From assembly GCA_003670925.1 (NCBI GenBank), contig QWQG01000040.1, positions 1 to 50,296 on the forward strand: a DNA stretch of 50,296 nt, read 5' to 3'. A program made the translations under genes and the position numbers. Source of the stretch: Planctomycetota bacterium. GTDB lineage: Bacteria; Planctomycetota; Planctomycetia; Planctomycetales; Planctomycetaceae. Every line of letters begins with the position of its first letter. Within the stretch, counting starts at the first letter, position 1. The notes below the pieces were generated by a model. The model did not search any database. It was given only the letters and a program-made list of their open reading frames with translations, and had not been told where the DNA came from. Shown here one piece after another: positions 31,965 through 50,159 of the stretch.

Positions 31965-32774
31965 ATGATCTACCTCTCTGAAACTCGGGTACAAGCACTT
32001 CCAATGCCTCGGCTTAACTTTACCAGTCGGCGACGGATCTCGAAAAATCATGTGACGATCAGTGTCACCGGCATTGGCGGGATTGAGACGTTCAGTGCGG
32101 AACTTGAACTGGGAAGTTACGGCTTTCCGGACTCGGCAACCGTAATTATTGAAGCATTTCGGCAACTAGAACTCGTCCGCTTTGAATTCGGCACGGTCGG
32201 CAGTCTTACTCCTCCAGCAAGTTGTCGACTCTCTGAATTTGGCACGCTCGCCGGACTGCGGTTCCGGATCAAGGTTGTGTCCACAGCAGAACCGCGCGGG
32301 CAGCTTTTGGCAGTTGGCGATCGCATCACGCCGCACAATGCAGAACAGCAATCGTTGAGTCGCGTTCCACTGTTGGCCGTCCGCGCTCAAGATCTAGGGC
32401 GAGAAGTCTGGCGTTTGGATTTTGCCGATGAACCTTTGCTGTTAGTGAATCCACGTGTGGTTGCGAAAAAAAAACTCGTACAGTCCGTTGAATTTCAGTC
32501 ACTCGTTCTGCCCGAGATCCTGCGGAGTATTTTGAGTCGGATTCTGCTGGTCGAACAGATGCGAATCTCGGACGATTCTGATGAGTGGACCTCGCGGTGG
32601 CTGAAGTTTGCTGAATCCATGCCTGGTGTAGGTACCGTACCGGATGAGGCTGATCCGGAGAGTGACCTAGACTGGATCGATGCTGCCATTAGTTCTTTCT
32701 GCCGCTGGCGGAGCGTGGATCAACAATTTTCCGGCTTCTGGAATGCTCGGAGCGTTCCGGAAGCACCTATGTAG
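31965..32774 (+). CDS. Hypothetical protein
   Basis: 269 residues (256 if the ATG at 32004 is used; neither has a good ribosome binding site). No signal peptide, membrane helix or motif I recognise. The N-terminal half is beta-rich (H-V-T-I-S-V-T-G-I-G-G), and the C-terminal half is helical and acidic. It follows the kinase on the same strand at a short distance and may be cotranscribed. Its stop codon TAG is bases 2-4 of a 25-bp palindromic repeat, so the present C-terminus may have been set by that repeat. Confidence 0.6.
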   Translation: MIYLSETRVQALPMPRLNFTSRRRISKNHVTISVTGIGGIETFSAELELGSYGFPDSATVIIEAFRQLELVRFEFGTVGSLTPPASCRLSEFGTLAGLRFRIKVVSTAEPRGQLLAVGDRITPHNAEQQSLSRVPLLAVRAQDLGREVWRLDFADEPLLLVNPRVVAKKKLVQSVEFQSLVLPEILRSILSRILLVEQMRISDDSDEWTSRWLKFAESMPGVGTVPDEADPESDLDWIDAAISSFCRWRSVDQQFSGFWNARSVPEAPM

Positions 32775-32795
32775 GATGGACATTCATGTCCGTCG
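32771..32795 (+). repeat. 25-bp palindromic repeat, copy 1
   Basis: Begins GTAGGATGG and contains the palindromic core GGACATTCATGTCC, ending CGTCG. The TAG at 32772-32774 is the stop codon of the preceding gene. Identical copies are at 39708-39732 (reverse) and 48067-48091, and a variant is at 50160-50184 (reverse). Confidence 0.85.
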
Positions 32796-33027
32796 CCCGG
32801 CCAAGGTGCCTTTGAGGAATTTTCCAGCGTGCAGGCCTCGGGTGACGATTCTCATGGTTGGGCTTTCCTTTTCAATCCTCTAATTTCGGTTTGAAGATGG
32901 ACGTCTGGTGCCATTTTTCCGTAAAGTAGTGGAGTCCGACGGATTCGACCTGCCGGATTCCCACCACACCTGTGCGACAAATTCCTGCCGTCGCATCCTT
33001 GCCACATGGCCTAAAATCGGTTGACGT

Positions 33028-35274
33028 ATGGCCTTAGTAAAACACAACCTGATCCTGCGTCACAAACTGTGTAAGCTGTGGTTTTCTGTTGTTGTGCTCC
33101 TGATTCTGTTTGGAAGCGCAGCGTTTGGAGAAGAAGATCGTGCCGTCAGCTTTGTCAACGACGTCATGCCGGTGCTAACAAAGGCGGGTTGTAACGCGGG
33201 TGTCTGTCATGCGAAGGCCGGTGGCGGACAAAACGGATTTCAGCTTTCGTTGCTTGGTTTTGAGTTTCAGGAAGACTACGAACATCTGGTCAAAGAGGGT
33301 CGCGGTCGCAGATTATTTCCGGCTGCTCCGGAACGCAGTCTGCTTCTGATGAAGGCTGTCGGCACGATGCCTCATGGTGGGGGTGTGCGTCTGCAGCGTG
33401 ATTCCGAGGGATATGAACTGATTTTAAATTGGATTCGACAAGGGGCTGCTTACGATGGGGGCTCAGCACTGCAATTGACAAGCATTGAGGTTCAGCCGAA
33501 GCGTGGGACCGTGATGCGGAACGCGGCACAGCAGCTCAAGGCCGTCGCAAAGTATGCGGACGGCAGCGAACGAGACGTCACGAGATTCGCTCTGTTTGAA
33601 TCCAACGACAAGAGCATGGCCGATGTTGCCGCTGGCGGGCTTGTGCAGATTTCAGACATTCCTGGCAAAGTTGCCATCATGGTTCGGTATCAGGGCAGGG
33701 TGGCGGTCTTCAATGCATCCGTCCCGTTGGGTGCTCCGGTGGACAGCGTGCCCGCATCAAAGAACTTTGTGGATGATTTTGTCTTCGCCAATCTGCGGGA
33801 AATCGGAGTTCCACCGTCGCCAGTTTGTGACGATGCGACTTTTCTGCGCCGCGTCTCCCTTGACATCTCGGGTCGGCTTCCCACGGACGCAGAAGCAATG
33901 GCATTCCTGACCAGCCAGGACGCAGACAAACGCGAGCAGGTCATCGACCGCCTGCTGCGAAGTCCAGAGTATGCGGACTACTTCGCAAACAAATGGACGG
34001 CGATGCTGAAGAATCGGCGTGATGACGCCAGCGACATGACATCGAACTTTGCATTCTATGCATGGGTCCGAGACAGTCTGCTCGCGAATAAGTCATATGA
34101 TCAGTTGGTCCGCGAACTCTTGGCGGCGACCGGCACGGTGATCGCCAATCCGCCGGTAGCGTGGTACAAACGTGTGAAGGAGCCGAAACAGCAGTTGGAA
34201 GATGTGGCTCAGTTGTTCCTCGGTGTGCGCATGCAGTGTGCGCAGTGTCATCACCATCCGTTTGAACGCTGGAGTCAAGACGACTACTACAGCTTTTCCG
34301 CCTTCTTCACTCAGGTCGGAAGAAAGCCGTCAGCGACGCGCGGTGAAGATCTTATTTTCCATAAACGCGGGGTCGCCGGGGCGGCAAATATCAAGACCGG
34401 AATGACGCTGAAACCTGCGGCGCTGGGCGATGTGATTCCTGCTATTGCTGCCGACGAAGATCCACGACTGAAACTGGCGGACTGGATGAGTTCTCCGAAG
34501 AATCCGTTCTTCGCGAAGGCCGTTGTCAACCGTTATTGGAAGCATTTCTTTCGACGAGGCTTGATTGAACCGGAAGACGATATTCGTGACACGAACCCGC
34601 CGACGAATCCTGAATTGCTGGCTGGGCTGGAACAACATTTCCATGCCAGCGACTTTGACCTGAAGGAGCTTGTCCGCGTCATCACGCGGTCAAACGCGTA
34701 CCAACTGAGTTCTGTCCCGAACCAGTACAACGTTGCAGATCAGCAGAACTACTCTCGCTATTATCCTCGCCGATTGCAGGCCGAGGTGATGCTGGATGCC
34801 ATTGATGATTTGACGGGGGCTCAGACGGATTTCCCGAATCTCCCGACCGGTACGCGCGCGATCGCTCTGCCGGACAACAGCTACAATAACGCCTCACCGT
34901 TTCTGAAAGTCTTCGGGCGGCCGGAGAACGAAAGTGTTTGCGAATGCGAACGAGTTCAGTCTTCGAGTCTGGCGCAGAGTTTGCATTTAATGAACGCCGG
35001 GGACATCAAGGCCAAACTCGCCACGGGCAGCGGTCGCGCAGACCGATTGGCGAAATCAGAACAACCTCCGGACCAAAAAATTCGCGAATTGTACATGGTG
35101 GCATTCGCGCGTGAGCCGCGCGCCGATGAATGGAAGGTCGCGTTGGATTATCTTGCAGAACCACGCATCGATGCGGCGGGGAATCCGATTGATCCTCAAA
35201 AGGCAAATACCGAAAACTTCCAAGATCTGATCTGGGCGTTGATCAATACGAAAGAGTTTTTGTTTAATCATTAG
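33028..35274 (+). CDS. DUF1549/DUF1553 exported cytochrome-type protein
   Basis: 748 residues with an N-terminal signal peptide (V-V-V-L-L-I-L-F-G-S-A-A-F-G). Order: cytochrome-like region with an unusual C-x4-C-H motif (C55, C60, H61); an Ig-like segment (~150-235, I-E-V-Q-P-K-R-G); DUF1549 (F-V-D-D-F-V-F onward, L-D-I-S-G-R-L-P); a canonical C-A-Q-C-H at 404-408 followed by H-H-P-F-E-R-W; then DUF1553 (N-R-Y-W-K-H-F-F-R-R-G). These proteins are a planctomycete hallmark, normally paired with DUF1501 proteins, and are thought to act in the periplasm; their biochemical role is not established. It is the first gene of the operon interrupted by the IS200-like element. Confidence 0.88.
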   Translation: MALVKHNLILRHKLCKLWFSVVVLLILFGSAAFGEEDRAVSFVNDVMPVLTKAGCNAGVCHAKAGGGQNGFQLSLLGFEFQEDYEHLVKEGRGRRLFPAAPERSLLLMKAVGTMPHGGGVRLQRDSEGYELILNWIRQGAAYDGGSALQLTSIEVQPKRGTVMRNAAQQLKAVAKYADGSERDVTRFALFESNDKSMADVAAGGLVQISDIPGKVAIMVRYQGRVAVFNASVPLGAPVDSVPASKNFVDDFVFANLREIGVPPSPVCDDATFLRRVSLDISGRLPTDAEAMAFLTSQDADKREQVIDRLLRSPEYADYFANKWTAMLKNRRDDASDMTSNFAFYAWVRDSLLANKSYDQLVRELLAATGTVIANPPVAWYKRVKEPKQQLEDVAQLFLGVRMQCAQCHHHPFERWSQDDYYSFSAFFTQVGRKPSATRGEDLIFHKRGVAGAANIKTGMTLKPAALGDVIPAIAADEDPRLKLADWMSSPKNPFFAKAVVNRYWKHFFRRGLIEPEDDIRDTNPPTNPELLAGLEQHFHASDFDLKELVRVITRSNAYQLSSVPNQYNVADQQNYSRYYPRRLQAEVMLDAIDDLTGAQTDFPNLPTGTRAIALPDNSYNNASPFLKVFGRPENESVCECERVQSSSLAQSLHLMNAGDIKAKLATGSGRADRLAKSEQPPDQKIRELYMVAFAREPRADEWKVALDYLAEPRIDAAGNPIDPQKANTENFQDLIWALINTKEFLFNH

Positions 35275-35285
35275 ATTTGCGTTTA

Positions 35286-35374
35286 GGCCCGGAGGGCTGG
35301 GACAACGAATGCCGGGGCTGTGAGGCCCCGGAAAAATATCCACTATGAGCTTACAGGCCTGAAAGGCCGACACA
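35286..35374 (+). repeat. Left arm of the element: hairpin blocks A, B, C
   Basis: Three palindromic blocks: A 35286-35299 (GGCCCGGAGGGCTG), B 35312-35331 (CCGGGG...CCCCGG, self-complementary) and C 35354-35374 (CAGGCCTGAAAGGCC..., self-complementary core). Each recurs as its reverse complement on the other side of the transposase gene. Confidence 0.85.
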
Positions 35375-35392
35375 ATTTTGGATGTTCGGACA

Positions 35393-35842
35393 ATGAGCAC
35401 ACATCAGCAGTTGCTGTATCACATTGTCTTCAGCACAAAGAATCGGCAGCGTTGGCTAACAGACGGTTTTCGGGAGAGTGTTTTTTCGTATCTGGCAGGT
35501 ACTGTGAACAAACTCAAAGGTACAACGATTATCGTCGGTGGCTACTATGACCATGTGAATTTGTTAGTCAAAATTCCGGCTAAGTTTGCAGTTTCAGATT
35601 TTGTTGGTTCATTGAAGTGCAATACCAGTAAGCACATCAACGAAACAGGTCAACGAATTGAGAAGTTTGCATGGCAGGACGGGTTTGGTGCGTTTTCGGT
35701 GAGCGTTTCTCAGAAGGCCAGAGTGTATTCGTACGTTGAACGACAAATGGAGCATCATGCTGGCGAGTCGTTTGAAGACGAATACCTGAATCTACTGAAG
35801 AAGCACGAAGTGGAATATGATCCGAAGTATGTATGGGATTGA
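35393..35842 (+). CDS. IS200-like (Y1/RAYT) transposase with an altered HUH motif
   Basis: 149 residues from ATG 35393; a TTG at 35378 is possible but lies next to block C. Y1_Tnp features: L-L-Y-H-I-V-F-S-T-K-N-R near the start, D-H-V-N-L-L-V-K-I-P at 53-62, S-L-K-C-N-T-S-K, F-A-W-Q-D-G-F-G-A-F-S-V-S and Y-S-Y-V-E-R-Q around the probable nucleophile Y114. In active relatives the metal-binding HUH motif reads H-V-H; here N56 replaces the second His, so catalytic activity is doubtful. Otherwise it is full length with no frameshift. Function by family: cuts and rejoins single-stranded DNA at hairpins. Confidence 0.85.
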   Translation: MSTHQQLLYHIVFSTKNRQRWLTDGFRESVFSYLAGTVNKLKGTTIIVGGYYDHVNLLVKIPAKFAVSDFVGSLKCNTSKHINETGQRIEKFAWQDGFGAFSVSVSQKARVYSYVERQMEHHAGESFEDEYLNLLKKHEVEYDPKYVWD

Positions 35843-35843
35843 T

Positions 35844-35931
35844 TGTGTCGGCCTTTCAGGCCTATAGAAGATTTAGGTTTCGCTTCCGGGGCCTTACGGC
35901 CCCGGCAGTGGTTGTGACAGCCCTCCGGGCC
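35844..35931 (-). repeat. Right arm of the element: hairpin blocks C', B', A'
   Basis: C' 35844-35863, B' 35886-35905 and A' 35918-35931 (CAGCCCTCCGGGCC) are the reverse complements of blocks C, B and A in mirrored order. Spacing between blocks differs from the left arm, so the arms are not one simple inverted repeat. Confidence 0.85.
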
Positions 35932-35957
35932 TGAAAAATGTGGGTAGAGACATCAAT

Positions 35958-38204
35958 ATGAAGATTTACCGAATTGCATCTCGATTATTTCTATCGGCTG
36001 CTGTTCTGATTGCGGCAATCACAACAGTCTTCGCACAATCTGTTTGTCTTCCTCTCCCGCGACTGTTGACCACCATGCCGATGGGCGGAACTGTGGGCAC
36101 GCAGGTTGAAATCACGATCAGCGGTGAAAACATCGAAGACGTCAGCGAGTTGATGTTTACGCATCCAGGCCTGACAGCCACACCGAAGCTCGATGCAAAC
36201 GGTCAGCCGGAAGCGAACAAGTACATGCTGACGATTGCGGCGGATTGCCCGCCGGGAATCCACGAAGCTCGTTTAATGACGCGTTTGGGGATTTCGTCCG
36301 CCCGTGTGTTTTGTGTTGATACATTGCCGGAAGTCACCCAGACCGCACCGAACACGACGCTGGCCACCGCGATGGCGCTGAAAGTCAACTCGATCTGCAA
36401 CGCCGTGATGACAACCAAGGCTGTCGATCATTACTGGTTCGATGCCGTGAAGGGGCATCGATACATCGTCAACTGTGCGTCGCGCGGCATTGACTCGAAA
36501 CTCGACGCGGTGCTGATTATCGGCGACTCGGCCGGTCGCGATTTGGTCGTCGAACGCCGTGGTGGCACGCTGGATTTCACCGCCCCCGAAGACGGCCGGC
36601 ATGTGATCAAGGTGCATGAGCTGACATTTAAAGGTGGTCCTGCGTTTTACTACCGTCTGGCGTTGCAGGAACTTGCTCCGGATGCGGCGATTCCGGAATT
36701 TGCATCGACAAAGACCGTCAATTCATGCTCATGGCCACCGGCAGGACTTGCAGCCAGCGCCGCATTAGCGGAAACAGAGCCGAACAACGAGCAGGCTCAG
36801 GCGCAGAAGATTTCTCTGCCGTGCGACATTGCCGGGAATTTCTTCCCGGCGGCTGACGTCGATCGATTTGAATTCACAGCGACAAAGGGCGATGTGTGGT
36901 GGGTGGAAGTCGCGTCTGAGCGATTGGGACGTCCGACCGATCCGGCAGTTCTTGTGCAGCATGTGAGCGGCGAAGGGACCGATGAGAAACTGACCGATGT
37001 GGTAGAATTCACAGACATCGCCAGTCCGATGAAACCATCCAGCAATGGCTATGCGTACGACGGTCCTCCTTACGACGGCGGTTCAGCCGATATCATCGGA
37101 AAGCTGGAGATCAAAGAAGACGGCGTGCATCGTCTGCAGTTGACGGATCTGTTCGGCGGGACGCGCAACGACGCGCGCAACGTGTATCGGCTGGTGATTC
37201 GCAAGGCGGCACCCGATTTCGCTGTGGCCGCTTGGGGTCTGCATATGGAACTCCGCAACGGCGACCGGAACGCACTTTCCAAACCGCTCGCACTGCGTGC
37301 CGGTGTGACAACGGCACTGGAAGTTATGGCTGTCCGGCGAGATGGCTTTGATGGTGCCATTGAACTGGTGATGGAGGGGTTACCCGAGGGCGTGACGGCT
37401 CAGGGACTGAAAATTCCGGCTGGCCAGACACGCGGCATCATGCTCATCACGGCCGATCAGAACGCACCTCGCTCGCTTGCGAATGTGACGTTTTACGGCA
37501 GAGCGACCCTTGGCGAAGCCCCAACGACGCGACCGGTGCACATGGCGGCGATGGCATGGCCGATCGTGGATTCCTGGGGTGAGATTCCCAGTCCTCGTCT
37601 GGTAACAGGGTTGCCAGTATCGGTCACCACATCTGAGTATGCACCAATCACGATCGCGGCGAATGAGAAGAAAGTTTGGGAAGTTGCGGCTGGTGAAAAG
37701 CTGACGATTCCACTCGTGCATACTCGTCGCGGTGAGTTTTCCGGATCGACATTGCAGCTCAGAACATTCGGGGCGGGGTTCGAACAGGTGCCGCGTTTTG
37801 ATGTCTCGCTGGACGCAGATCAATCGGAAGTCGTGCTGGATCTGGCGGCATTGAAAACTCCGCCGGGCGATTATCTGATCGCATTCTATGGCAGCGCGGT
37901 GGTGAAATACCGATACAATCCAGAGGCTGTTGCAGTCGCCGAAGCAGCTCAGAAAAAAGCGACAGAAGAAGCGGCCGTGGCAACTGCAGAAGTTGAGCGA
38001 TTGACGGCTGAAGCAGCAGCGGCAGCTTCCGAAACCAAAGCCGCCGCAGACGCCGGTGTGGCCGAAGCGACAGCAAAGAAACAAACAGCCGATGCTGCGG
38101 TGGCTGCCGCTGTAGCGAAACTCAAAGCGGCAACGGATCGGGCGACGCCAACAGATACGGCAGATATTGTGTTGTCAGAACCAATTGCAATTCGTGTGAA
38201 GTAG
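35958..38204 (+). CDS. Exported PPC-domain protein with an Ala-rich coiled coil
   Basis: About 748 residues from ATG 35958 (GTG 35940 possible). Signal peptide (L-F-L-S-A-A-V-L-I-A-A-I-T-T-V-F-A-Q), then beta-sandwich repeats of the bacterial pre-peptidase C-terminal (PPC) type: V-D-H-Y-W-F-D-A-V-K-G-H near 160 and a second E-P-N-N-E-Q-A-Q / D-V-D-R-F-E-F near 280-300. Residues ~653-730 are Ala/Glu/Lys-rich and should form a long coiled coil, inserted before a final beta strand (D-I-V-L-S-E-P-I-A-I-R-V-K). In planctomycetes this family sits between DUF1549/1553 and DUF1501 genes, as here. Envelope location is inferred; activity unknown. Confidence 0.8.
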   Translation: MKIYRIASRLFLSAAVLIAAITTVFAQSVCLPLPRLLTTMPMGGTVGTQVEITISGENIEDVSELMFTHPGLTATPKLDANGQPEANKYMLTIAADCPPGIHEARLMTRLGISSARVFCVDTLPEVTQTAPNTTLATAMALKVNSICNAVMTTKAVDHYWFDAVKGHRYIVNCASRGIDSKLDAVLIIGDSAGRDLVVERRGGTLDFTAPEDGRHVIKVHELTFKGGPAFYYRLALQELAPDAAIPEFASTKTVNSCSWPPAGLAASAALAETEPNNEQAQAQKISLPCDIAGNFFPAADVDRFEFTATKGDVWWVEVASERLGRPTDPAVLVQHVSGEGTDEKLTDVVEFTDIASPMKPSSNGYAYDGPPYDGGSADIIGKLEIKEDGVHRLQLTDLFGGTRNDARNVYRLVIRKAAPDFAVAAWGLHMELRNGDRNALSKPLALRAGVTTALEVMAVRRDGFDGAIELVMEGLPEGVTAQGLKIPAGQTRGIMLITADQNAPRSLANVTFYGRATLGEAPTTRPVHMAAMAWPIVDSWGEIPSPRLVTGLPVSVTTSEYAPITIAANEKKVWEVAAGEKLTIPLVHTRRGEFSGSTLQLRTFGAGFEQVPRFDVSLDADQSEVVLDLAALKTPPGDYLIAFYGSAVVKYRYNPEAVAVAEAAQKKATEEAAVATAEVERLTAEAAAAASETKAAADAGVAEATAKKQTADAAVAAAVAKLKAATDRATPTDTADIVLSEPIAIRVK

Positions 38205-38210
38205 GAGGTG
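38203..38210 (+). promoter_or_regulatory. Perfect ribosome binding site overlapping the upstream stop
   Basis: AGGAGGTG starts within the TAG stop of the PPC gene (38202-38204) and lies five bases before the DUF1501 ATG. It is the strongest Shine-Dalgarno sequence I noticed and implies tight translational coupling of the two genes. Confidence 0.75.
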
Positions 38211-38215
38211 TCACC

Positions 38216-39670
38216 ATGAGCGATCCATTCTATGCATCATCTGTCGTCCGCTGTCCTGGACCATACGCCTTTGGTTCTGCCGGGCGTCGTGGTTTTATCC
38301 GCATGGGACTGGCCGGGTTTGCCAGTATGAGTTTGCCTGGGCTCCTGCGGTTGCAGGCGGCAAATGCTCAGGCAAACGAGACCAGGGGAAAACCGGCCAG
38401 CGAAAAGACGGCCGTCATCATGGTCTGGAAGCCGGGCGGATGTTCGCACATCGATACGTACGACCCAAAGCCTGACTCCGGCAGTGAATATCGCGGTCCG
38501 TTCTCTACGATTGACACGAAAGTCCCCGGATTGCAGTTCACAGAACTGCTTCCGATGCAGGCGGCGATCGCTGACAAGTTCACGGTTCTGCGATCAATGC
38601 GTCAGACAGCCGGCGGGCATCCGGCCGGGTCAATGCAGATGCTGTCTGGAGATCCCGATACGCGCGACAAACCCAAACCAAAATTTCCTGACTGGATGAC
38701 CGTTACAAATTATTTGCGTTCGCAGAGTAGTCTTCGGACGAATCCATTGCCGCTGTATGTGGGCATTAAACCGCCGTTGGAATACAATGGGCCGGCGTAT
38801 CTGGGCGATGCGTATTCGCCGTTCACCGTGAATGGCGATCCAAACTTGCCGACATTTTCCGTGCCGAACATCGGGCTGTCAGATCAAAGTGAAATCCAAC
38901 GCATCGACCGACGTTCATCGCTGCGGCAAAACCTAGACACTCTCGAACGCGCCTTTGATCGGCAGGGTGAACTTGGCGCACTTGACCAGTTCGAAGAGCA
39001 GGCCATGACGTTGCTCACGAATCCGCAAACGCGCGATGCGTTTGATCTGACCAAAGAAGATGATCGCACCCGAGACCGCTACGGTCGCAATTCGTGGGGT
39101 CAGCAGTTGCTGATGTCGCGTCGATTGATCGAAGCGGGTGTCGAAGTTCTGACAACCAGTCTGAACGGGCCGCTGTGTGGTCGTGTTCAGAACTGGGACG
39201 ACCATGCCGTCAATCACCACGTCTTCGATGCGCTGCGATTCCGCGCACAAGCCTATGATCAGGCCGTTTCGGCACTGATTGAAGATATCTATGAACGCGG
39301 TCTCGACAAGCGAGTTCTCGTCGTGGTCACAGGAGAATTCGGTCGCACACCAAAGATCGAACATTCCCCCAGCACGGGTGCCGGCGATGCCAGCGCGCCG
39401 GCAGGCACAATGCAGCCGGGTCGAGATCACTGGCCTCGGGCATTTTCAAACATCTGGGCCGGTGGTGGAATTGAAACGGGTCGGGTGATCGGTGCCACCG
39501 ACAAACGTGGCGAAGATTCCATCGAACGAATTTGTTCAGCCGGGGACTTCCTTGCGACGATCTACCATCATCTTGGCATCGACGCAGCTCATACGCTCAT
39601 TAATGATTTCAACGGTCGCCCGACGCCGATCGTGGATCACGGCAAGCCGATTCCGGAATTGATGGGATGA
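38216..39670 (+). CDS. DUF1501 family protein, Tat-exported
   Basis: 484 residues. The N-terminus has a twin-arginine signal (G-R-R-G-F-I-R-M-G-L-A-G-F-A, R24-R25), so it should be exported folded. The body is the DUF1501 domain of the alkaline-phosphatase/sulfatase superfamily: V-W-K-P-G-G-C-S-H-I-D-T-Y-D-P-K-P, H-P-A-G-S-M-Q-M-L-S-G, W-D-D-H and G-E-F-G-R-T-P near the C-terminus. The enzyme activity of the family is not established. It pairs with the DUF1549/1553 protein in the usual planctomycete arrangement, with the PPC gene between them. Confidence 0.88.
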   Translation: MSDPFYASSVVRCPGPYAFGSAGRRGFIRMGLAGFASMSLPGLLRLQAANAQANETRGKPASEKTAVIMVWKPGGCSHIDTYDPKPDSGSEYRGPFSTIDTKVPGLQFTELLPMQAAIADKFTVLRSMRQTAGGHPAGSMQMLSGDPDTRDKPKPKFPDWMTVTNYLRSQSSLRTNPLPLYVGIKPPLEYNGPAYLGDAYSPFTVNGDPNLPTFSVPNIGLSDQSEIQRIDRRSSLRQNLDTLERAFDRQGELGALDQFEEQAMTLLTNPQTRDAFDLTKEDDRTRDRYGRNSWGQQLLMSRRLIEAGVEVLTTSLNGPLCGRVQNWDDHAVNHHVFDALRFRAQAYDQAVSALIEDIYERGLDKRVLVVVTGEFGRTPKIEHSPSTGAGDASAPAGTMQPGRDHWPRAFSNIWAGGGIETGRVIGATDKRGEDSIERICSAGDFLATIYHHLGIDAAHTLINDFNGRPTPIVDHGKPIPELMG

Positions 39671-39707
39671 TCGTCAATCTCCCCAACGACAATATTGGCT
39701 GGTAATG

Positions 39708-39732
39708 CGACGGACATGAATGTCCATCCTAC
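39708..39732 (-). repeat. 25-bp palindromic repeat, copy 2
   Basis: On the minus strand it reads GTAGGATGG with core GGACATTCATGTCC, identical to copies 1 and 3. The TAG (39731-39729) is the stop codon of the minus-strand SGNH-DUF1080 gene. Confidence 0.85.
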
Positions 39733-41090
39733 TTCTGAGTGATTCGAATTCGGCGGTATTCCATCTGGCCTCGGTCGCCTTCCAGGCCGATCGGGCCGGT
39801 GGCGGGAACCTTCATCGCCTCTTCGATCACTTCGCCGTTGCAGGTGCAGTGAGCGATACCGCCTTTTACGACCACGACCAGCTCGTTCCAGTCACCGGAC
39901 TGGAAGTTCTTCAACTCCTTGTACGGTCCAGCGAGGGGGAAGTCGCGGCACTGCAATTGAGGCTCGCGAATAAAGACGCCGCTGTCGGCGTTCGGCGTCG
40001 CTCGGAATTCCAGCTTGAGTGTGAAGTCTCCGCTGAACTCACGAGTCGTATACAATTGCTGAATCTTGCGGCCCTCCGGTGGCGTGGTCACCACAAGGCG
40101 GCCGTTCTTTGCCAGATAACGACCTTCGGGCGTGACAACCTTGCCTTCGAAGCTGACAGGCTCGTCCACAAACGGCCATGAAACGCCTGGATCACTCGCC
40201 ATCCATTTCAGAGCCCCGGCCCGTGATTTTTCCGGAGTCACGCGATAGCCCCAGCCGGTCAGGTCTTTGCCATTGAACAGACTTTCGAAACCTGGCTCCG
40301 ACGAAAAGTCATCGGCTTCTGTTTCGATGAATCCCAAAGTGGCGAGCACAGGCCGCAGCCCACCGGCCCATTTGGCGTAACCGACTTCGTTGGGATGCAG
40401 CAGGTCGGGCATTTCTTCGGCTTTGGCATCACCCTTTTCGTTGGCAAACAGCGTCCATGTTTCCAGCACCGTGATCTGCGGATCGCCCTGGACAGCCTTG
40501 GCACACAGCTTGTTGATTTCTTTGATCTTGTCAGCGGGTCGGCTCTTCGATTCGGAGCTCGGAAAGACCTGACACAGCACGATCGGCATTTCGGGATTGT
40601 GTTTCTTCAATGCGTCAATGATGAGTTTGACGTTGTCTGCGATGACTTGCGGCTCAGCCTTCTCTTCGAGGTCGTTCGTCCCCATGAGCATCACAACGCC
40701 CGACGGATTGAGGTCCAGCACGTCTCCGTTCAGGCGAATGAGCATCCCGCGGGTCGTATCGCCGCTGATGCCTCGATTGGCAACTTTCAAGCCTGGAAAT
40801 GCGCCGTGCAGATCATCGCCCCAGCCCTGGGTGATCGAGTCTCCCAGAAACACGACGGCCTTTTGATCCTGTTCGACCTGCTTCGCCCATGCTGAACGCC
40901 GCTCGGTCCAGAGACTCTTGAACCAATCGTATCGCCGAATCGGTCCGGCACCGGGAAGTCCATCGTCGGTGGCTGGCAGAGCGAGCGCGATCGAATCGTC
41001 CGCATGGACCGTGTGCAGACCAGATATCAGACACGACACCATGAACACTATCAGAAGAAGAACGTTGCATGGAAAGTGCGAGAGCTTCAT
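39729..41090 (-). CDS. SGNH hydrolase fused to a DUF1080 domain
   Basis: About 453 residues with a signal peptide (V-L-L-L-I-V-F-M-V-S-C-L-I-S-G). The SGNH/GDSL esterase domain (~75-255) shows block I G-D-S-I-T-Q-G-W with nucleophile S85, block II N-R-G-I-S-G-D-T at 105-112, block III G-T-N-D with N139 and block V D-L-L-H with D229 and H232. A DUF1080 (3-keto-disaccharide hydrolase-type, jelly-roll) domain follows from ~265 (F-N-G-K-D-L-T-G-W) to the end. Such fusions suggest secreted deacylation and cleavage of polysaccharides, but the substrate is unknown. An ATG at 41105 is less likely than 41090. Its stop lies in palindromic repeat copy 2. Confidence 0.85.
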   Translation of the reverse strand: MKLSHFPCNVLLLIVFMVSCLISGLHTVHADDSIALALPATDDGLPGAGPIRRYDWFKSLWTERRSAWAKQVEQDQKAVVFLGDSITQGWGDDLHGAFPGLKVANRGISGDTTRGMLIRLNGDVLDLNPSGVVMLMGTNDLEEKAEPQVIADNVKLIIDALKKHNPEMPIVLCQVFPSSESKSRPADKIKEINKLCAKAVQGDPQITVLETWTLFANEKGDAKAEEMPDLLHPNEVGYAKWAGGLRPVLATLGFIETEADDFSSEPGFESLFNGKDLTGWGYRVTPEKSRAGALKWMASDPGVSWPFVDEPVSFEGKVVTPEGRYLAKNGRLVVTTPPEGRKIQQLYTTREFSGDFTLKLEFRATPNADSGVFIREPQLQCRDFPLAGPYKELKNFQSGDWNELVVVVKGGIAHCTCNGEVIEEAMKVPATGPIGLEGDRGQMEYRRIRITQK

Positions 41091-41503
41091 GGTGACTTCT
41101 TTCAAAGGCAGGGAAGGTGAAGCAGGAATTGCGAAAGTCTAGCGGCTCGATGAATGAATGCGTAGTGAATAGGCAGGCAGCGATTCGGCGAGCGGTGCGG
41201 CGTCAGCCCGCCGGTACAACTGCGATTCATGGCGCGATCGGGAACCATGAATCACGGGCAGTCAAGAGACGGTACTCCATCGAATCCAATTGTATCGGCA
41301 AGCTGACGCATGCCGCTCGCTGAAGTCTCGGACAAGAATCTCCAAGGTACATTCTTCGGCCGCTTGCTCTGAATCCTGTCGTCCGCCACACTATGATTTA
41401 TCTTTGATTCCATCTCTAATGCAACCAAACTCCAACCGGAGCATCTCTCCTGCATTCGCCTTCATCTGACGATCACTGTTGTTCCGTTACCGACGGCTCC
41501 GCC
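41091..41503. other. 413-base divergent intergenic region with palindromes
   Basis: No gene found. It must carry promoters for the SGNH-DUF1080 gene and for tcdA. It holds a GC-rich palindrome-like stretch around 41190-41217 (GGCGAGCGG...CGTCAGCCCGCCGG) and, next to it, a perfect 9-bp inverted repeat, GATTCATGG (41224-41232) and CCATGAATC (41245-41253), with a 12-base loop. The arrangement resembles dispersed intergenic palindromes rather than a single operator. Confidence 0.4.
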
Positions 41504-42412
41504 ATGCCGGAACTGGATGCTGCCTTGCCAAAGCAGACGCGAATTCGCGCTTGGGAATCGGCACCGGATCTGACAGCGCGGCCGAATCGTGAGGATCTGC
41601 CGCCAGTTCCGGATCGGATTCATCGTCGTTGGGATCGCTTTGTGCGACTGATGGGACATGAAGGAGTGCTTCGTCTGCTGAGTTCGCATGTGACCATCTT
41701 TGGATTGGGCGGCGTCGGCAGTTACGTCGCTGAAGCGTTGGCACGATCGGCGGTGGGACGCATGACGCTGGTCGATTTCGACGATGTCTGCCTGACCAAC
41801 GTGAACCGTCAGTTGCAGGCATTCCCGGGAACCGTGGGACAGTCGAAAGCGGCGCTGTTGGCAGAACGAGTCCGGGCGATTCATCCGGAAGCTTGGGTTG
41901 ATCCCGTGCAGGCATTTTATGACGCATCCACTTCCGCCGCATTGCTGACACCGCGACCAGATTTTGTGGTGGATGCGATCGATAACGTCACGTCAAAAAT
42001 ACTGTTGCTCGAAACGTGTCTGACGCAGGGCATTCCTGTGATCAGCATCACCGGTGCGGGTGCGCGACTTGATCCAACTCAGATCCGTGTGGATGATCTG
42101 AGTCGCACGAAAGTTGATCCGCTCGCTCGCGTGTTGCGCAAGGAACTGGTTCGACGAGGCTATGGGAACGATGGCGAAATGGGTCTGCCGGTCGTCTATT
42201 CCGAAGAAGAAGTCCGGGCACCGGAAGTTCCGGAATGGGATCTCGACAAAGGATTTCAATGTATCTGCCCGCATCGTGAAGATTCGCCGCACGCATGCGA
42301 AAAGCGGCGAGTCATCTATGGCACCGCCACGTTTATGACCGCAGCGTTTGCCATGGCAGCGTCGTCGGTGGTGGTGCGAAGATTAAGTCAGTTGCCGACG
42401 GCGACAGGGTGA
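41504..42412 (+). CDS. tcdA: tRNA threonylcarbamoyladenosine dehydratase (TcdA/CsdL)
   Basis: 302 residues of the ThiF/E1-like family. F-G-L-G-G-V-G-S at 66-73 binds ATP; D-F-D-D at 91-94 and N-V-N-R-Q at 99-103 are the adenylation signature; V-D-A-I-D-N-V follows. The later F-Q-C-I-C-P-H and Y-G-T-A-T-F segments are found in TcdA proteins. It would cyclise t6A to ct6A at position 37 of ANN-decoding tRNAs. The N-terminus carries ~40 extra residues before the R-R-W-D-R-F-V-R-L segment where most members begin, so the true start may be internal. Confidence 0.87.
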   Translation: MPELDAALPKQTRIRAWESAPDLTARPNREDLPPVPDRIHRRWDRFVRLMGHEGVLRLLSSHVTIFGLGGVGSYVAEALARSAVGRMTLVDFDDVCLTNVNRQLQAFPGTVGQSKAALLAERVRAIHPEAWVDPVQAFYDASTSAALLTPRPDFVVDAIDNVTSKILLLETCLTQGIPVISITGAGARLDPTQIRVDDLSRTKVDPLARVLRKELVRRGYGNDGEMGLPVVYSEEEVRAPEVPEWDLDKGFQCICPHREDSPHACEKRRVIYGTATFMTAAFAMAASSVVVRRLSQLPTATG

Positions 42413-42477
42413 TCGCCGATAGAAACAAAAAACACGAATCGAACGTTCCTGCCTCAACTCAATTACGATGATTCTCA

Positions 42478-45291
42478 ATGAACAATTCTGCTCCGATCAG
42501 GTTTTTACTCCTGTGGGTCGCGTTAGGTGCACCCTCATTTGCCGCTGATGGCATTATCGTACCTGCATATCAGCGATTTCGTGCTGACCATTTGAATTCG
42601 GTGGATGCTGGGCGACTTCTGATTTCGGAACTCAATTGTCAGTCGTGTCACGGCACGTTTTCGGGTGAAGTACTGCCGCCTCGCCAAGCACCGATTCTGA
42701 CAAAGATCGGGGAACGAACGAATGCGGAATATTTGCAGAAATTCATTCACGATCCTCAGGCACTCAAGCCGGGAACAGCAATGCCGAGTATGGCGCGTCT
42801 GAAGTCCGAGATTGTGATGTCAGAGGCCATCGCTGCTTTTCTGACGCAGGGGACAACTTGGCGTCCGGCGGGAGTAAGCATTGGAGCCGTGCGACGTGGT
42901 GAGGCACTCTTTCATACGGTCGGCTGTGCTGCGTGTCATGGTGATCAGCGAGATGTCGCCGTGATCGAAGCGATTCGCAAGGGTCTCACCTCGCTGCCAG
43001 CACAGGCAGACGAAGAGGAAGACGAGCCTGCGAAGAAAGTGGCGTCCGATGCCAGCTATGCCACGCCTGACTTCGCGATGCCGCTAGGGAAACTGGACGA
43101 CAAGTACACGTTGTCCAGTCTGATCACTTTCCTGCAGGATCCGCACGCCGTGCGTCCGTCCGGAAGAATGCCATCGTTGAATCTAAAACCTGAAGAAGCA
43201 AGAGACATCGCCAGCTATTTGCTGAAGAACGTCAAGGTGAAGGCCAATATTCATTTTGAGCATTACGAAGGCGACTGGGGAAGCGTGCCCGATTTTTTAC
43301 AACTGACTCCGACAGACTCCGGCGAGGCGACGGACTTTTCGGTCAGTGCATCACCCAAAACTGACGCATTCGGGCTTCGGTTTACCGGCTTTCTGCAGAT
43401 CCCGACGGACGGAGACTTCAGGTTTTTCCTAAGCTCCGACGATGGTTCAAAACTACTGATCGACGGTACGGTTGTGGTCGACCATGATGGTGTGCACCCA
43501 CCCGGATTTCAAGACGGCGTGGCGACACTCAAATCGGGACCGCACGATGTGGTGGTGGAATACTTCGAGGCTGGTGGAGGCGAAGAGCTGCTTGTTGAAA
43601 TCGAAGGACCGAACATGCCTCGTCAACCAATGGCGGGGTTCGTTACGCTCACACAGGAAGTCGACACAGCGGCAGAAGATGTTGCAGCTGTTGCGTCACC
43701 AGAATTGATCGAACAAGGCCGTCAACTATTCGCCTCGTTGGGTTGTGCTGCCTGCCATCAGTTTGGCGATGGCGAACAGAGGATTGCGTGGACCGGCAAG
43801 GCACCGCAGTTCGCCAACCTGAAAACCAGCGGCGGTTGCCTCGCGGAACAACCTGCAGTCAATGTCCCGCACTTTGTCCTGAGCCCTCGTCAACGAGACG
43901 ATATCACGGCGGCGATCTTGGCGTTGCGCGGCGTGAATGCCACGTCGAAAGTAGCATCTGCAAAGAGTGAGATCAACCAAATCTTGCTCACGATGAATTG
44001 CTACGCCTGTCATGCGCGGGGCAGCATTGGCGGTGTGTCCGAACCGATGACGCATGTTTTTGTCGGCAGCATTCCGGAAATGGGTGATGAAGGCCGCGTG
44101 CCGCCAGGACTGGATGGTGCCGGCGACAAACTCAACGAAGCCTGGCTCAAAACGATTCTGAACGAGGGTGCGAAAGATCGGCCCTACATGACGACGCGGA
44201 TGCCGAAGTTTGGCAACGCAGCAGCCGATGCTCTGGTACCGCGACTGATCGCCAGTGACCTGCAGGAATCTGTGGCTCCAATTGTGATGCCAGAAGCCGA
44301 TCACCGTGTCAAAGCCGATGCGCGATTGATGGTTGGTGACCAGGCATTGTCGTGCATCAAATGTCACACCTTTGAACAGTATGCGGCAACCGGAATTCAA
44401 TCGCTCGACATGACGACTATGACGCGGCGGCTGAGACGCGACTGGTTTCACCGTTATATGCGTGATCCGCAGCAGTATCGTCCGGGGACCCGAATGCCGG
44501 CCGCGTGGCCAAAAGGCCGGTCCGTGGTGCCCGACATTCTGGGGGGCGATGCGGGCGTGCAGATTGAAGCCATTTGGCAGTATCTGCTCGATGGCAATCG
44601 GGCGAGGATTCCGTCTGGATTGATGCGGGAATCCATTGAACTGATTCCTGCCGACAGGCCGCTGATCTATCGCAATTTCATTGAAGGACTGTCGCCGCGC
44701 GGGATCGCAGTCGGGTTTCGGGAGAAAGCTCATTTCGCCTGGGATGCTGAACACATGACCCCGCGTCTGATCTGGCACGGCGGGTTCATTGATGCATCAA
44801 AGCATTGGGTGGATCGCGGACCGGGGAATCAGACTCCGCTGGGGGACCATATCATGACACTGCCTGCGGGACCACCGCTCGCCACGCTGGTGTCGCTTGA
44901 TGAACCGTGGCCGGACAAGTCGCCTCGTGAAAACGGATTTCATTTCAGGGGCTACACGCTGGATGCGGCTGGCGTGCCGGCCTTCAAGTATCAATGGAAT
45001 GACGTCAGTGTTACGGATTCACTGCAGCCGTTTATGGCAAGTCCTGACAACGGTCTGCAGCGGACAGTGATGGTCAAGTCGTCAGCACGTTTGGAAAATG
45101 TGTATTTGCGAATCGCCGCTGGTCCGAAGATTGAAGCTGTCGATGGCGTGTTTGTGACAAATGGAATACAGCTGAAGTTTGACGAGTACGAACCGGTGAT
45201 TCGGACGATTGGTGGCCATCAGGAATTGCTGGTCCCGGTGCAACTCAACGCCGACGGCAGGGCAATCATTCGTTATTCGATCGTCTGGTGA
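42478..45291 (+). CDS. Exported penta-haem cytochrome c / PA14 protein
   Basis: 937 residues with a signal peptide (F-L-L-L-W-V-A-L-G-A-P-S-F-A-A). Five C-x-x-C-H haem-attachment sites: C54-Q-S-C-H, C150-A-A-C-H, C423-A-A-C-H, C508-Y-A-C-H and C626-I-K-C-H. A PA14-type carbohydrate-binding domain (~262-388, G-F-L-Q-I-P-T-D-G-D-F-R-F-F and S-D-D-G-S-K-L-L-I-D-G) is inserted after the second site. Met-containing G-T-A-M-P and G-R-M-P segments supply likely distal ligands. It should be a periplasmic electron carrier, perhaps serving sugar oxidation with the beta-propeller protein encoded downstream; the pairing is an inference from gene order. Confidence 0.88.
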   Translation: MNNSAPIRFLLLWVALGAPSFAADGIIVPAYQRFRADHLNSVDAGRLLISELNCQSCHGTFSGEVLPPRQAPILTKIGERTNAEYLQKFIHDPQALKPGTAMPSMARLKSEIVMSEAIAAFLTQGTTWRPAGVSIGAVRRGEALFHTVGCAACHGDQRDVAVIEAIRKGLTSLPAQADEEEDEPAKKVASDASYATPDFAMPLGKLDDKYTLSSLITFLQDPHAVRPSGRMPSLNLKPEEARDIASYLLKNVKVKANIHFEHYEGDWGSVPDFLQLTPTDSGEATDFSVSASPKTDAFGLRFTGFLQIPTDGDFRFFLSSDDGSKLLIDGTVVVDHDGVHPPGFQDGVATLKSGPHDVVVEYFEAGGGEELLVEIEGPNMPRQPMAGFVTLTQEVDTAAEDVAAVASPELIEQGRQLFASLGCAACHQFGDGEQRIAWTGKAPQFANLKTSGGCLAEQPAVNVPHFVLSPRQRDDITAAILALRGVNATSKVASAKSEINQILLTMNCYACHARGSIGGVSEPMTHVFVGSIPEMGDEGRVPPGLDGAGDKLNEAWLKTILNEGAKDRPYMTTRMPKFGNAAADALVPRLIASDLQESVAPIVMPEADHRVKADARLMVGDQALSCIKCHTFEQYAATGIQSLDMTTMTRRLRRDWFHRYMRDPQQYRPGTRMPAAWPKGRSVVPDILGGDAGVQIEAIWQYLLDGNRARIPSGLMRESIELIPADRPLIYRNFIEGLSPRGIAVGFREKAHFAWDAEHMTPRLIWHGGFIDASKHWVDRGPGNQTPLGDHIMTLPAGPPLATLVSLDEPWPDKSPRENGFHFRGYTLDAAGVPAFKYQWNDVSVTDSLQPFMASPDNGLQRTVMVKSSARLENVYLRIAAGPKIEAVDGVFVTNGIQLKFDEYEPVIRTIGGHQELLVPVQLNADGRAIIRYSIVW

Positions 45292-45302
45292 TGCGACTCC
45301 GT

Positions 45303-45337
45303 GTAGGGTGTGTTTCGCTTCGCTGCACACAGCCTAC
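45303..45337. repeat. 35-base imperfect palindrome between paired genes
   Basis: GTAGG...GTGTG pairs with CACAC...CCTAC around a central CGCTTCGC, forming a hairpin in the 87-base gap between the cytochrome and propeller genes. No T-run follows. It has no sequence in common with the 25-bp family beyond its GTAGG opening. Confidence 0.55.
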
Positions 45338-45378
45338 AGGTCTCTGGCGTCGAAAAAAAATCTTGTGAAAGTCTATTC

Positions 45379-46851
45379 ATGCGAATCACGTTAATTATCG
45401 CCAGCTTTCTCCTGCTAACGTCATCCAACTGTCTCCGCGCACAGGACTCCGCCGCGCCAACGGAAGAAGACTTCTATCCGCTCACCAAATTCCAGATTCC
45501 GAAGGGCATCGTGCTGGAAGCGGGAGCGATCGAGCCGCTGCCTGACGGCACACTGGCGATTGCCACACGACGGGGAGACATTTATCGGGTATCGAATGCT
45601 TGGGGCGATGATCCGGCAGCGGCGACGTTCGAACTGTATGCTCAGGGCATGCACGAAATTCTTGGCCTGAGTTACAGAGATGGCTGGCTCTATGCCACGC
45701 AGCGTTGTGAAGTGACACGATTGCGAGATACTGACAATGATGGACAAGCTGATGATTTCGAAACGTTCAACGACAGTTGGAGCATCAACGGCGACTATCA
45801 CGAGTACGCGTTTGGTTCGCCATTCGACAAGGATGGCAATATGTGGGTGGTGTTGTGCCTGACGGGTTCATTTAACAGTGATTGCCCATGGCGTGGCTGG
45901 GCGTTGCGGATCGATGCGTCCGGCAAAACGATCCCGACGTGCAGCGGAATTCGCTCACCTGGTGGGATGGGCTTCAATGCCGAAGGCGACGTCTTCTATA
46001 CCGACAATCAGGGCCCGTGGAACGGCACGTGTAGCCTGAAATGGCTGCGTCCAAATTCATTTCAGGGGCATCCGGGCGGCAATCGCTGGTTTTCACTGAC
46101 GGACGGCGGCAAGGATGCGGCACCGCAGGAACCACTGAGTGGCAGTCGGATTATGACCGAAGCGGACAAAATTCCGGAATACGAGCCCCCTGTAATTTTG
46201 TTTCCGTATCAGAAAATGGGGCAGAGCGCCAGCGGTATCGCGTGCGATGTGAGTCACGGGAAATTCGGCCCGTTTGAAAATCAATTGTTTGTGGGTGACG
46301 TGACGCACAGCACAGTCATGCGTTGCTTCGTCGAAAAAATTAACGGCCACTATCAGGGAGCCTGCTTTCCATTTCGTGAAGGGATCAGCTCAGGCACACT
46401 GGCACTGCGAATGACGGACGACGCCACGATGTTTGTGGGAGGCACGAACCGTGGCTGGGGCTCGCGGGGTACGAAACCATTCTCGCTGGAACGCCTCCGC
46501 TGGTCGGGGAAAATGCCATTTGAAATTCAGGAAATGCGGGCTCAGTCAGACGGGTTTGAACTCACGTTTACCGAACCTGTGGATCCTGAGATCGCGCGGA
46601 AGCCCGAAACATGGACGATGGAAACGTACTGTTACATTTTTCAGTCATCGTACGGCAGTCCGGAAGTTGATCATACCAAACCGCTCATCACGCAGATTGA
46701 TGTTGCTGCCGACGGCCGATCAGTGCGTCTGAAAATCGATGGCCTGCAACGCGGACACATTCACGAACTGCACGCCGATGGCTTGAGATCCACCACCGGC
46801 ATTCCTCTGCTGCACCCTGTCGCGTATTACACGTTGAACTACATACCGTAG
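45379..46851 (+). CDS. Exported beta-propeller (sorbosone dehydrogenase-like) protein
   Basis: About 490 residues from ATG 45379, chosen because it begins a signal peptide ([14 protein letters not shown]); the frame is open further upstream only through the palindrome region. Repeated [16 protein letters not shown] and [15 protein letters not shown] segments fit the soluble quinoprotein glucose/sorbosone dehydrogenase-like propellers common in planctomycetes. PQQ binding is not demonstrable by eye. With the penta-haem protein just upstream, it could be an oxidoreductase whose electrons pass to that cytochrome; this is inferred. Confidence 0.78.
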
Positions 46852-46864
46852 ATGGGAGCGAACA

Positions 46865-47206
46865 ATGGGACTTCTGGCCGGCACAAAATTCGATCGACCC
46901 CCGCATTGTGATCGCTGTGAAAAATTGGAAGCTGAGTGTACCTGTTCGCCGCTGGAACCAGTGCGAACGCCGCCCGGAAAACAGACCGCCCGGATTGCTG
47001 TGGAAAAGCGCAAGCACGGGCGCATGATAACAGTCATTCGCGGGTTGGCGGCGGAGGACACAGACCTACCATCGCTGCTCAAACGTCTGAAGAATGCCTG
47101 CGGAGCGGGCGGGACGATCACAGACGATAGTTTGGAAATTCAGGGGACTCAGGCAGATCGAGTGCGGACAGAATTGCAGACAATCGGGTATAAAGTGAGA
47201 GGGTGA
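46865..47206 (+). CDS. SUI1/YciH-family translation factor-like protein
   Basis: 113 residues with GGGAG upstream of the ATG. The C-terminal two-thirds match the eIF1/SUI1 fold of YciH proteins: V-E-K-R-K-H-G-R-M-I-T-V-I-R-G-L, L-P-S-L-L-K-R-L-K-N-A-C-G-A-G-G-T-I and E-I-Q-G-T-Q-A-D-R-V. The N-terminus has C15, C18, C25 and C27, a possible small metal-binding knuckle that I do not associate with YciH. YciH influences start-site fidelity in E. coli. Tightly spaced after the propeller gene, but the link is probably accidental. Confidence 0.85.
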   Translation: MGLLAGTKFDRPPHCDRCEKLEAECTCSPLEPVRTPPGKQTARIAVEKRKHGRMITVIRGLAAEDTDLPSLLKRLKNACGAGGTITDDSLEIQGTQADRVRTELQTIGYKVRG

Positions 47207-47290
47207 ATCGTAGCTCAGTTCTCCGCCGAAGGAGATTCCTGTCAGCGCACGATAAAAACAAGCGATCCAAGCTTATGGAGACAGCATGCT

Positions 47291-48070
47291 ATGAAAACAA
47301 TCACTCTTCCGATCTTCATCCTACTTCTCGCAGCGTTCTGCTCCCGATCAACGGCACTCGCAGTTGAAGAGCCGGACGACGCGACTAAGGCTCCGACGGT
47401 CGTCGATGAAAGCCGCTACGAAAACCGTCTGGATCACGATCCGAACGGTATCGGCAAGTTCTACATGGGCCGTGAGATTGCGCATGTGATGGGTTTCGGG
47501 CCGGGGGGGCAGGGGGCGGACTGGTTGGAACGATCCACGCGCGAAGAAGAGGAACGTCTGGTGTTGCTGGTGCGTTCGCTGCAGTTGAAGCCAGGTGAAG
47601 TAGTAGCCGACATTGGTTCTGGCAGTGGAGTGATCGCACTTCGCATGTCCGAACAGTTATTGCCGGATGGCAAAGTTTTCGCGGTGGATGTGCAGGATGA
47701 AATGCTGGAACGTCTGAAAGCCAACTGCGAACGCTTTGGTATCAAAAACATCGAACCGGTGAAGGGAACGCAGTACAAGACTGGATTAAAACCGGCAAGC
47801 GTGGATATGGCCATCATGGTGGATGTGTACCATGAGTTCGAATTTCCGCACGAAATGATGACTGATATAGCCAAGGCGATGAAACCCGGTGGACGCGTGG
47901 TGCTTGTAGAATACCGCAAGGAAGATCCGACGGTGCCCATCAAAGAAATTCACAAGTTGTCGCAGGGTCAGGCGAAGAAGGAAGTTGAGCAGGCGGAGTT
48001 CGGTCTGCGGTGGACAGAGACAATTCATGTTTTGCCGCGCCAGCATATTCTCATATTCACAAAACAGTAG
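47291..48070 (+). CDS. Class I SAM-dependent methyltransferase with a signal peptide
   Basis: 259 residues. A clear signal peptide (I-F-I-L-L-L-A-A-F-C-S-R-S-T-A-L-A) precedes a Rossmann methyltransferase: motif I V-V-A-D-I-G-S-G-S-G at 104-113, V-F-A-V-D-V-Q at the end of strand 2, a D-V-Y-H-E-F-E-F motif and M-K-P-G-G-R-V-V-L-V-E-Y. The family includes ubiquinone/menaquinone and small-molecule methyltransferases. Export is odd because SAM is cytoplasmic; such secreted methyltransferases recur in planctomycetes and their role is unclear. GGAG lies 10 bases before the ATG. The stop TAG is supplied by palindromic repeat copy 3. Confidence 0.85.
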   Translation: MKTITLPIFILLLAAFCSRSTALAVEEPDDATKAPTVVDESRYENRLDHDPNGIGKFYMGREIAHVMGFGPGGQGADWLERSTREEEERLVLLVRSLQLKPGEVVADIGSGSGVIALRMSEQLLPDGKVFAVDVQDEMLERLKANCERFGIKNIEPVKGTQYKTGLKPASVDMAIMVDVYHEFEFPHEMMTDIAKAMKPGGRVVLVEYRKEDPTVPIKEIHKLSQGQAKKEVEQAEFGLRWTETIHVLPRQHILIFTKQ

Positions 48071-48091
48071 GATGGACATTCATGTCCGTCG
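48067..48091 (+). repeat. 25-bp palindromic repeat, copy 3
   Basis: Same sequence as copy 1: GTAGGATGG, core GGACATTCATGTCC, then CGTCG. Its TAG (48068-48070) ends the methyltransferase gene, and its last base starts the GGAG ribosome binding site (48091-48094 region) of the next gene. Confidence 0.85.
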
Positions 48092-48102
48092 GAGTTTCAG
48101 CT

Positions 48103-48414
48103 ATGGACCGGACTACGCTGCGAGGCGTTGCGTTTTGGACGGCGGTGATCACCTCCCTGATCGGTTTGATGATTCGTGCTATGTATGCGTTAATACCGTT
48201 TGCGACTTTCGGCCTAGACCTTTCGAGTGTCTACAAATTGATGGGGGTCGTTAGTCTCTTCGTGGAAGGCCTGAGCAGCGGATCATTGTTGTTGTTCCTC
48301 GGCCTCGTCCACTACGACCTGATGACCGCCCAGCGACTTTCGGAACATGCCCGTGACTATCTGATCCGTGATCTGACGCAGTCGTCTCAGGAAAATAAAT
48401 CGAATCATGGTTGA
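48103..48414 (+). CDS. Small membrane protein, unknown
   Basis: 103 residues, two or three hydrophobic segments ([25 protein letters not shown] and S-L-L-L-F-L-G-L-V) and a polar C-terminus. The start at 48103 has GGAG eight bases upstream; an ATG at 48082 inside the repeat is less likely. It overlaps the next gene by 8 bases, so the two are probably translated together. No family recognised. Confidence 0.65.
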
Positions 48415-50107: not shown

Positions 50108-50159
50108 CTTCGCCCTATTGTTTGAGGTGCTGAAGACCAAGGGGAAGACTACGGTGGTG

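Follow-up and report, generated by a model that had tools for sequence, protein, structure and literature searches.

A GTAG-tagged REP element that supplies the stop codon of some preceding genes in a planctomycete genus

The 25-bp palindromic repeat that ends three genes in the planctomycete DNA analysed here is a GTAG-tagged REP element, and the stop codon that it supplies is a side effect of an element whose kind is already known. Very probably, the repeat has been spread by a RAYT-type transposase, with the TAG of its tag becoming a stop incidentally, when the reading frame fits. Stop supply is not general: all three exact copies in the window (the whole stretch of 50,296 nucleotides) supply a stop, versus nine of the 115 evaluable copies in the same genome. 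In the part of the paper cited here, GTAG REPs are said to "often provide" a TAG stop to flanking ORFs (Di Nocera, De Gregorio, and Rocco, 2013; PMC3733652). The present analysis puts numbers on this one-sentence remark, both for the frequency of the tag-supplied stop and for the small change of the protein end. A planctomycete genus with large populations of GTAG REPs is an addition to the known superfamily, in which the family is apparently new and the kind is known.

Repeat copies in the window and their host genes

In the window, the word GTAGGATGGACATTCATGTCC is found with zero mismatches at 32,771–32,791 (+), 39,712–39,732 (−), and 48,067–48,087 (+), and no match was found in 100 shuffles of the window. 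All three copies reach 25 bp, ending GTCG, as GTAG REPs with an A-type arm (GTAG-GATGGACATTCATGTCCGTC-G) at 32,771–32,795 (+), 39,708–39,732 (−), and 48,067–48,091 (+), which bears out the preliminary description of three identical 25-bp copies at these positions. The same description held that each copy provides the in-frame TAG stop of an unrelated gene, and this is the case. The TAG (amber) codon at 32,772–32,774 ends an ORF at 31,965–32,774 (+) that encodes a hypothetical protein of 269 aa with no Pfam family. The TAG at 39,731–39,729 ends a GDSL-lipase/3-keto-disaccharide hydrolase gene (458 aa; 39,729–41,105, −), and the TAG at 48,068–48,070 ends a methyltransferase gene (259 aa; 47,291–48,070, +), the last two being named from their Pfam matches. 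The first G of the repeat closes the last codons ATG, AAG, and CAG, as had been stated. The 3-keto-disaccharide hydrolase family is the one formerly called DUF1080; proteins with DUF1549, DUF1553, and DUF1501 are also encoded in the window according to Pfam, and these families likewise indicate a planctomycete.

A fourth copy, absent from the earlier account, is a GTT variant (GTAGGTTGGACATTCTTGTCCGACG) at 50,160–50,184 (−), recovered by the window search as the two-mismatch match GTAGGTTGGACATTCTTGTCC at 50,164–50,184 (−). Some 112 bp separate it from the contig end, and it belongs to the 8 of 123 sites in the genome whose relation to a host gene is not evaluable. A degenerate REP-like match (GTACCTTGGAGATTCTTGTCC; 41,330–41,350, −), with two substitutions relative to a loose pattern, may be due to chance. 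A role as intrinsic terminator was considered for the three exact copies and rejected on the combination of hairpin and U-run: they form none of the 12 terminator-like sites in 32,000–50,296, where shuffles give an expectation of 18.2. One terminator-like site begins 24 bp after the third exact copy.

A REP family and its candidate transposases

The genome of the window (G000; 5.78 Mb in 259 contigs) contains 184 copies of the repeat at three or fewer mismatches, and the reversed control pattern gives 0. Placement was studied at 123 G000 sites, 8 of them too near a contig end and 115 evaluable, with genes called by a home-made script based on codon usage. The repeat is a GTAG-tagged REP: its stem falls within 5–13 bp, its loop is short, and its GTAG is unpaired; its copies are dispersed in tens to hundreds and form regular head-to-head dimers; and it is mostly extragenic, with convergent and same-direction spacers favored over divergent ones. 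The hairpin has an 8-bp stem and a 4-nt loop with the GTAG just 5′ of it (−11.3 kcal/mol for all three exact window copies). The tag is GTAG at 61 of the evaluable sites, GTAC at 16, GGAG at 13, and ATAG at 6, with others making up the remainder. The main arms are GTAG-GATGGACATTC and GTAG-CTTGGACATTC, and the third arm is GTT. Outside called genes lie 109 of the 115 evaluable copies (six are inside), with 25 in convergent, 61 in same-direction, and 9 in divergent spacers and 14 at an edge; the spacers of the same DNA number 38, 169, and 53, respectively.

In a REPIN, two inverted REPs are regularly spaced. The present repeat also forms inverted pairs at regular spacing: 81 of the 123 sites are paired head to head, 5 tail to tail, and 37 are single, the commonest head-to-head spacing being 107–108 bp. 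The head-to-head pair is a REPIN-like unit of approximately 130 bp in which the repeat is often arranged. The three exact window copies depart from the REPIN arrangement (PMC3116915), as no REP partner was found for any of them. In the 12 bases upstream of the arm, an outer flank, GCTGCGATTCCT, is common to most arms of the B type (GTAGCTT; for example, at L056, positions ~5061–5095). The A-type arms as a group have no common outer flank, and the bases upstream of them vary. Thus, the borders appear to differ between one end of the dimer and the other.

The family resembles the GTAG REP superfamily in its unpaired GTAG at one end, its short palindrome with a loop, and its many copies, and also in its head-to-head dimers, its location after genes, its presence in the PVC superphylum, and its provision of TAG stops (PMC3733652). 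That paper describes 24 families. Among the article texts searched, on REPs and RAYTs and for words of the repeat itself, none describes this repeat family, and the words of the repeat gave a single unrelated paper.

At two or fewer mismatches, copies are present in 10 of the 18 genomes of the genus and absent from the other eight. Six genomes have many copies (G014, 175; G000, 132; G017, 121; G009, 70; G016, 61; G015, 50) and four have few (G003, 5; G001, 3; G005, 1; G011, 1). Because eight genomes lack copies at this threshold, the genus lends itself to use as a natural experiment on the effects of REPs at gene ends. Exact 24-bp copies were also found in two public MAGs, in 49 stretches, by a scan from which the record of the window itself may be left out. 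One of these MAG records is titled Planctomycetaceae bacterium, and the other (CAMAVB01) is titled Candidatus Kuenenia stuttgartiensis. Since L116 and other CAMAVB01 loci align with G000 at about 80–90%, this title looks wrong.

Matches to Y1_Tnp occur in all 10 copy-bearing genomes, and six of the eight copy-free genomes have none (18 genomes, kinship ignored); G006 and G013 have Y1_Tnp matches yet no copies at two or fewer mismatches. Of 101 Y1 places in the genus, 73 loci were examined (33 places plus 40 loci, some cut by contig ends), the 33 places corresponding to 37 loci of which 4 are repeats of a place. REPs of the same design lie on both sides of the Y1_Tnp gene at three of these 73 loci (0 of the 33 places and 3 of the 40 loci): L285 (G009:C54), L288 (G015:C421), and L291 (G016:C694). 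In all three, the stop codon of the RAYT gene itself is the TAG in the GTAG of the downstream REP. The RAYT gene of G009 is split over two frames, and the upstream REP overlaps the RAYT open frame at L288 and L291. A REP pair lies about 1.3 kb from Y1 locus L294. Six further Y1 loci (four plus two) have only two-mismatch matches without GTAG, which were taken as chance. None of the five Y1_Tnp genes of G000 has a REP beside it, in an assembly of 259 contigs where a copy may be missed, and the RAYT of L291 gave no match to these five loci at E 1e-3.

These loci resemble RAYT/REPtron systems, in which a Y1_Tnp gene lies between inverted REPs and REP abundance tracks the transposase (Nunvar et al., 2010, PMC2817692; PMC8266576). 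G000 differs from a REPtron in having no REP-flanked Y1_Tnp gene among its five, with the REPtron arrangement found elsewhere in the genus, in G009, G015, and G016. The passages of Nunvar et al. (2010; PMC2817692) that treat this point place REPs very near or directly downstream of the rayt stop codon, whereas in all three REP-flanked cases here the RAYT stop is inside the REP. In three other REPtrons, the transposase cuts single-stranded REP beside the hairpin using GTAG, and the tolerance of tag changes differs among them (PMC8266576). Given the REP-flanked RAYTs in sister genomes and the analogy to REPtrons, the TAG is best read as part of a tag that the transposase needs; by this analogy, the tag would be kept for the transposase and not for translation.

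The Y1_Tnp gene in the window (35,378–35,842, +) was rejected as the cognate RAYT, as no REP adjoins it and its flanks hold different inverted repeats. These are long and imperfect, of CCTGAAAGGCC type and GGGGCC type, and enclose the gene at 35,340–35,935. Of five inverted-repeat words tried in approximately 520 kb of G000 DNA, four were confined to the window and the fifth was not found. The gene is similar to the TIRYTs, the transposases with flanking TIRs that Di Nocera et al. describe (PMC3733652).

Frequency of supplied stop codons

The nine G000 copies that supply a stop comprise eight with GTAG and one with TTAG, and include the three in the window. The preliminary description named as a refutation that most other copies lie away from gene ends or out of frame; on this measure, most other copies do not provide a stop. 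All nine have A arms (9 of 47 versus 0 of 68 other arms; Fisher P 0.0002). Some gene has its 3′ end within 60 bp of 47 of the 115 evaluable copies, and the nearest same-sense stop lies 1–60 bp upstream in 31. With nine stops exactly on the TAG and 31 spread over 60 bp upstream, where the density is 0.52 per bp (Poisson P 4.5e-9), the coincidence of stop and TAG is enriched. The GTAG of a REP ends a called gene in 8 of 60 instances, compared with 52 of 1386 for non-REP GTAG words in the same DNA (Fisher P 0.0026). To judge from the sequence, every fresh copy has TAG in one frame, and the A arm has no stop in its two remaining frames; thus, a gene whose end meets a copy is either terminated immediately or read through. 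Same-sense genes meet a copy in 12 instances, 9 of them ending at the TAG and 3 reading through (one-third expected to end there by frame; P 0.0039), a test that mixes arm types because the three read-through copies have GTT or TTT arms and not A arms.

Among 50 exact copies of the two public MAGs, chosen for an intact GTAG, 9 supply a stop, 17 have a same-sense stop at 1–60 bp on the upstream side, and 3 fall within called genes, either strand being counted; 3 of the 9 suppliers are orthologous to stop-supplying sites of G000. It is hardly credible that the three of three in one window are a selected coincidence with no genome-wide excess. In its favor, no more than 5 of the 18 evaluable GTAG-GAT copies beyond the window, plus one TTAG copy, supply a stop, but nine stops at the exact position against the low density nearby, and the MAG copies with their three orthologous suppliers, speak against it. 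The idea of insertion or selection at gene ends is supported in part, as regards placement, by the excess at the exact stop and the 47 copies near a 3′ end, and falls short in that stop suppliers are a minority both in G000 and in the MAGs (9/115 and 9/50).

The preliminary description also proposed that a stop and a 3′ hairpin are provided together; this is so in that GTAG plus palindrome is the REP itself, which makes the two a single unit. Whether that unit is selected as a 3′-end module, the repeat being kept for the stop together with an mRNA-stabilizing or ribosome-stalling hairpin, is another matter, and we consider it quite unlikely. The strong excess exactly at stops would fit such a module, and two repeat-bearing orthologues keep the stop as TAA (the GDSL/DUF1080-type gene in G017 and the L078 gene in G014). 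In addition, earlier work in E. coli cited by the RepRanger authors reported downregulated translation where a REP lies within 15 nt of a stop (PMC12306157, in the part cited here). However, 106 of the 115 copies supply no stop, the scan did not identify the copies as intrinsic terminators, and the replacement of TAG by TAA shows that selection acts on the stop of the host gene and not on the repeat. Moreover, 8 of the 18 genomes are free of copies at two or fewer mismatches, and 7 of these 8 have a strong match to the methyltransferase.

Protein ends and the origin of the supplied stops

Orthologues within the genus were compared for six of the nine stop-supplying genes (all but those at L056, L072, and L111). 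In all six, the nearest repeat-free orthologue ends two or fewer residues from the same place. Truncation of proteins by the repeat was rejected on this comparison, although the G005 orthologue of the L096 gene, about 11 residues longer, does not fit so simple a view. Judging by these nearest relatives, the stop of the repeat comes into use at the previous end of the protein or close to it, without truncation.

For the methyltransferase gene, the REP is present at the same site in G017 and absent there in G014, where the protein is two residues longer (TGA), and in G005, where TAG stands at the same codon. The REP after the GDSL/3-keto-disaccharide hydrolase gene is also at the same site in G014 and in G017, the latter with TAA replacing TAG; the repeat-free G005 orthologue has TAG at the same codon without the preceding G. 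For the hypothetical gene, the repeat was seen only in G000 among the orthologues, those of G017 and G005 having the same length (TGA) and that of G014 ending one residue later. The L078 gene has the repeat in G017 and G014 (with TAA as the stop in G014) and ends one residue earlier in repeat-free G005. The L048 gene has it in G014 and ends two residues earlier in repeat-free G017 and one earlier in G005.

Our preferred reading is that the REP has become dispersed in several genomes of a single planctomycete genus, most likely via a RAYT-type Y1 transposase that uses GTAG, its mobilization being presumed by analogy with published RAYTs. Copies lie almost only in extragenic DNA, often just 3′ of a gene. 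Where a copy landed at a gene end and the frame fitted, the TAG in GTAG would become the stop codon; alternatively, a nearby native stop may have been lost later, leaving the TAG of the repeat as the stop. The protein would end near its old end, so that the copy would be tolerated, and selection on the stop of the host gene would presumably then hold it in place. Pairwise alignments of differing sites and multiple alignments for three genes yielded no clean unoccupied site at which the insertion borders could be read exactly, the intergenic DNA having diverged; we therefore infer the act of insertion.

A different order of events seems unlikely, in which GTAG is the target and the repeat is inserted by the transposase 3′ of a GTAG already in place; genes ending in G-TAG would then be preferred, and their stop would predate the repeat. 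In IS608, the left-end tetranucleotide is the target site, a precedent that counts in its support. Repeat-free ends with GTAG at the same codon are found in the G005 methyltransferase and in L311 (G017:C80), a second, partial copy of the L078 type at a contig start. A GTAG end with no repeat is seen, too, in the more distant G003 orthologues of the hypothetical gene and the L048 gene, and the G005 GDSL/DUF1080-type orthologue with its TAG, lacking the G, is a further case of this sort. On the other side, close repeat-free orthologues end in TGA or TAA for the hypothetical gene (G014, G017, G005), the L048 gene (G017, G005), the L096 gene (G017), the methyltransferase (G014), and the L078 gene (G005). 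Since TAG ends 106 of 312 called genes longer than 300 bp in the G000 DNA examined, some TAG is expected at the ends of repeat-free orthologues. The cleavage sites of published RAYTs are CT or CA next to the REP, and GTAG serves as recognition sequence or guide, according to the part of the study cited here (PMC8266576). The end of L311 reads GTAGGAT without a palindrome and may be either a REP remnant or a target-like site.

The L096 gene offers a possible instance of the later loss of a native stop allowed for in the preferred reading. In its G014 orthologue, L327 (G014:C449), the repeat is present but its tag has decayed to GTAC, and a native TGA lies five codons before it. Where G014 has this TGA, G000 has TCG, and its translation ends five codons on, at the TAG of the repeat. 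The repeat-free orthologues end two residues earlier in G017 and about 11 later in G005. Judged from these sequences, a stop was apparently lost (TGA to TCG), and the TAG of the repeat came to its rescue. The case invites a wider but doubtful proposal, that the GTAG tag acts as a portable back-up stop: since the TAG of each fresh copy stands in a single fixed frame, REPs downstream of genes would catch stop-loss mutations, the copy would thereby become fixed, and REPs would hitch-hike on needed stops. RAYT uses the same arrangement, with its own stop in its own REP, and L096 would be one apparent takeover.

An element with GTAG REPs at gene 3′ ends is also known from Coxiella burnetii, where QMITE2 overlaps gene ends by 1–10 bp and in one case extends the protein (PMC5896051, in the part cited here). 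QMITE2 is like the present repeat in its position and its GTAG REP, but is a longer MITE with other borders in a different phylum. Among the more distant comparisons, several repeat-free orthologues of the methyltransferase and L048 genes extend 11–15 residues past the end of the alignment, the methyltransferases of G012, G002, and G003 doing so by 14–15 residues.
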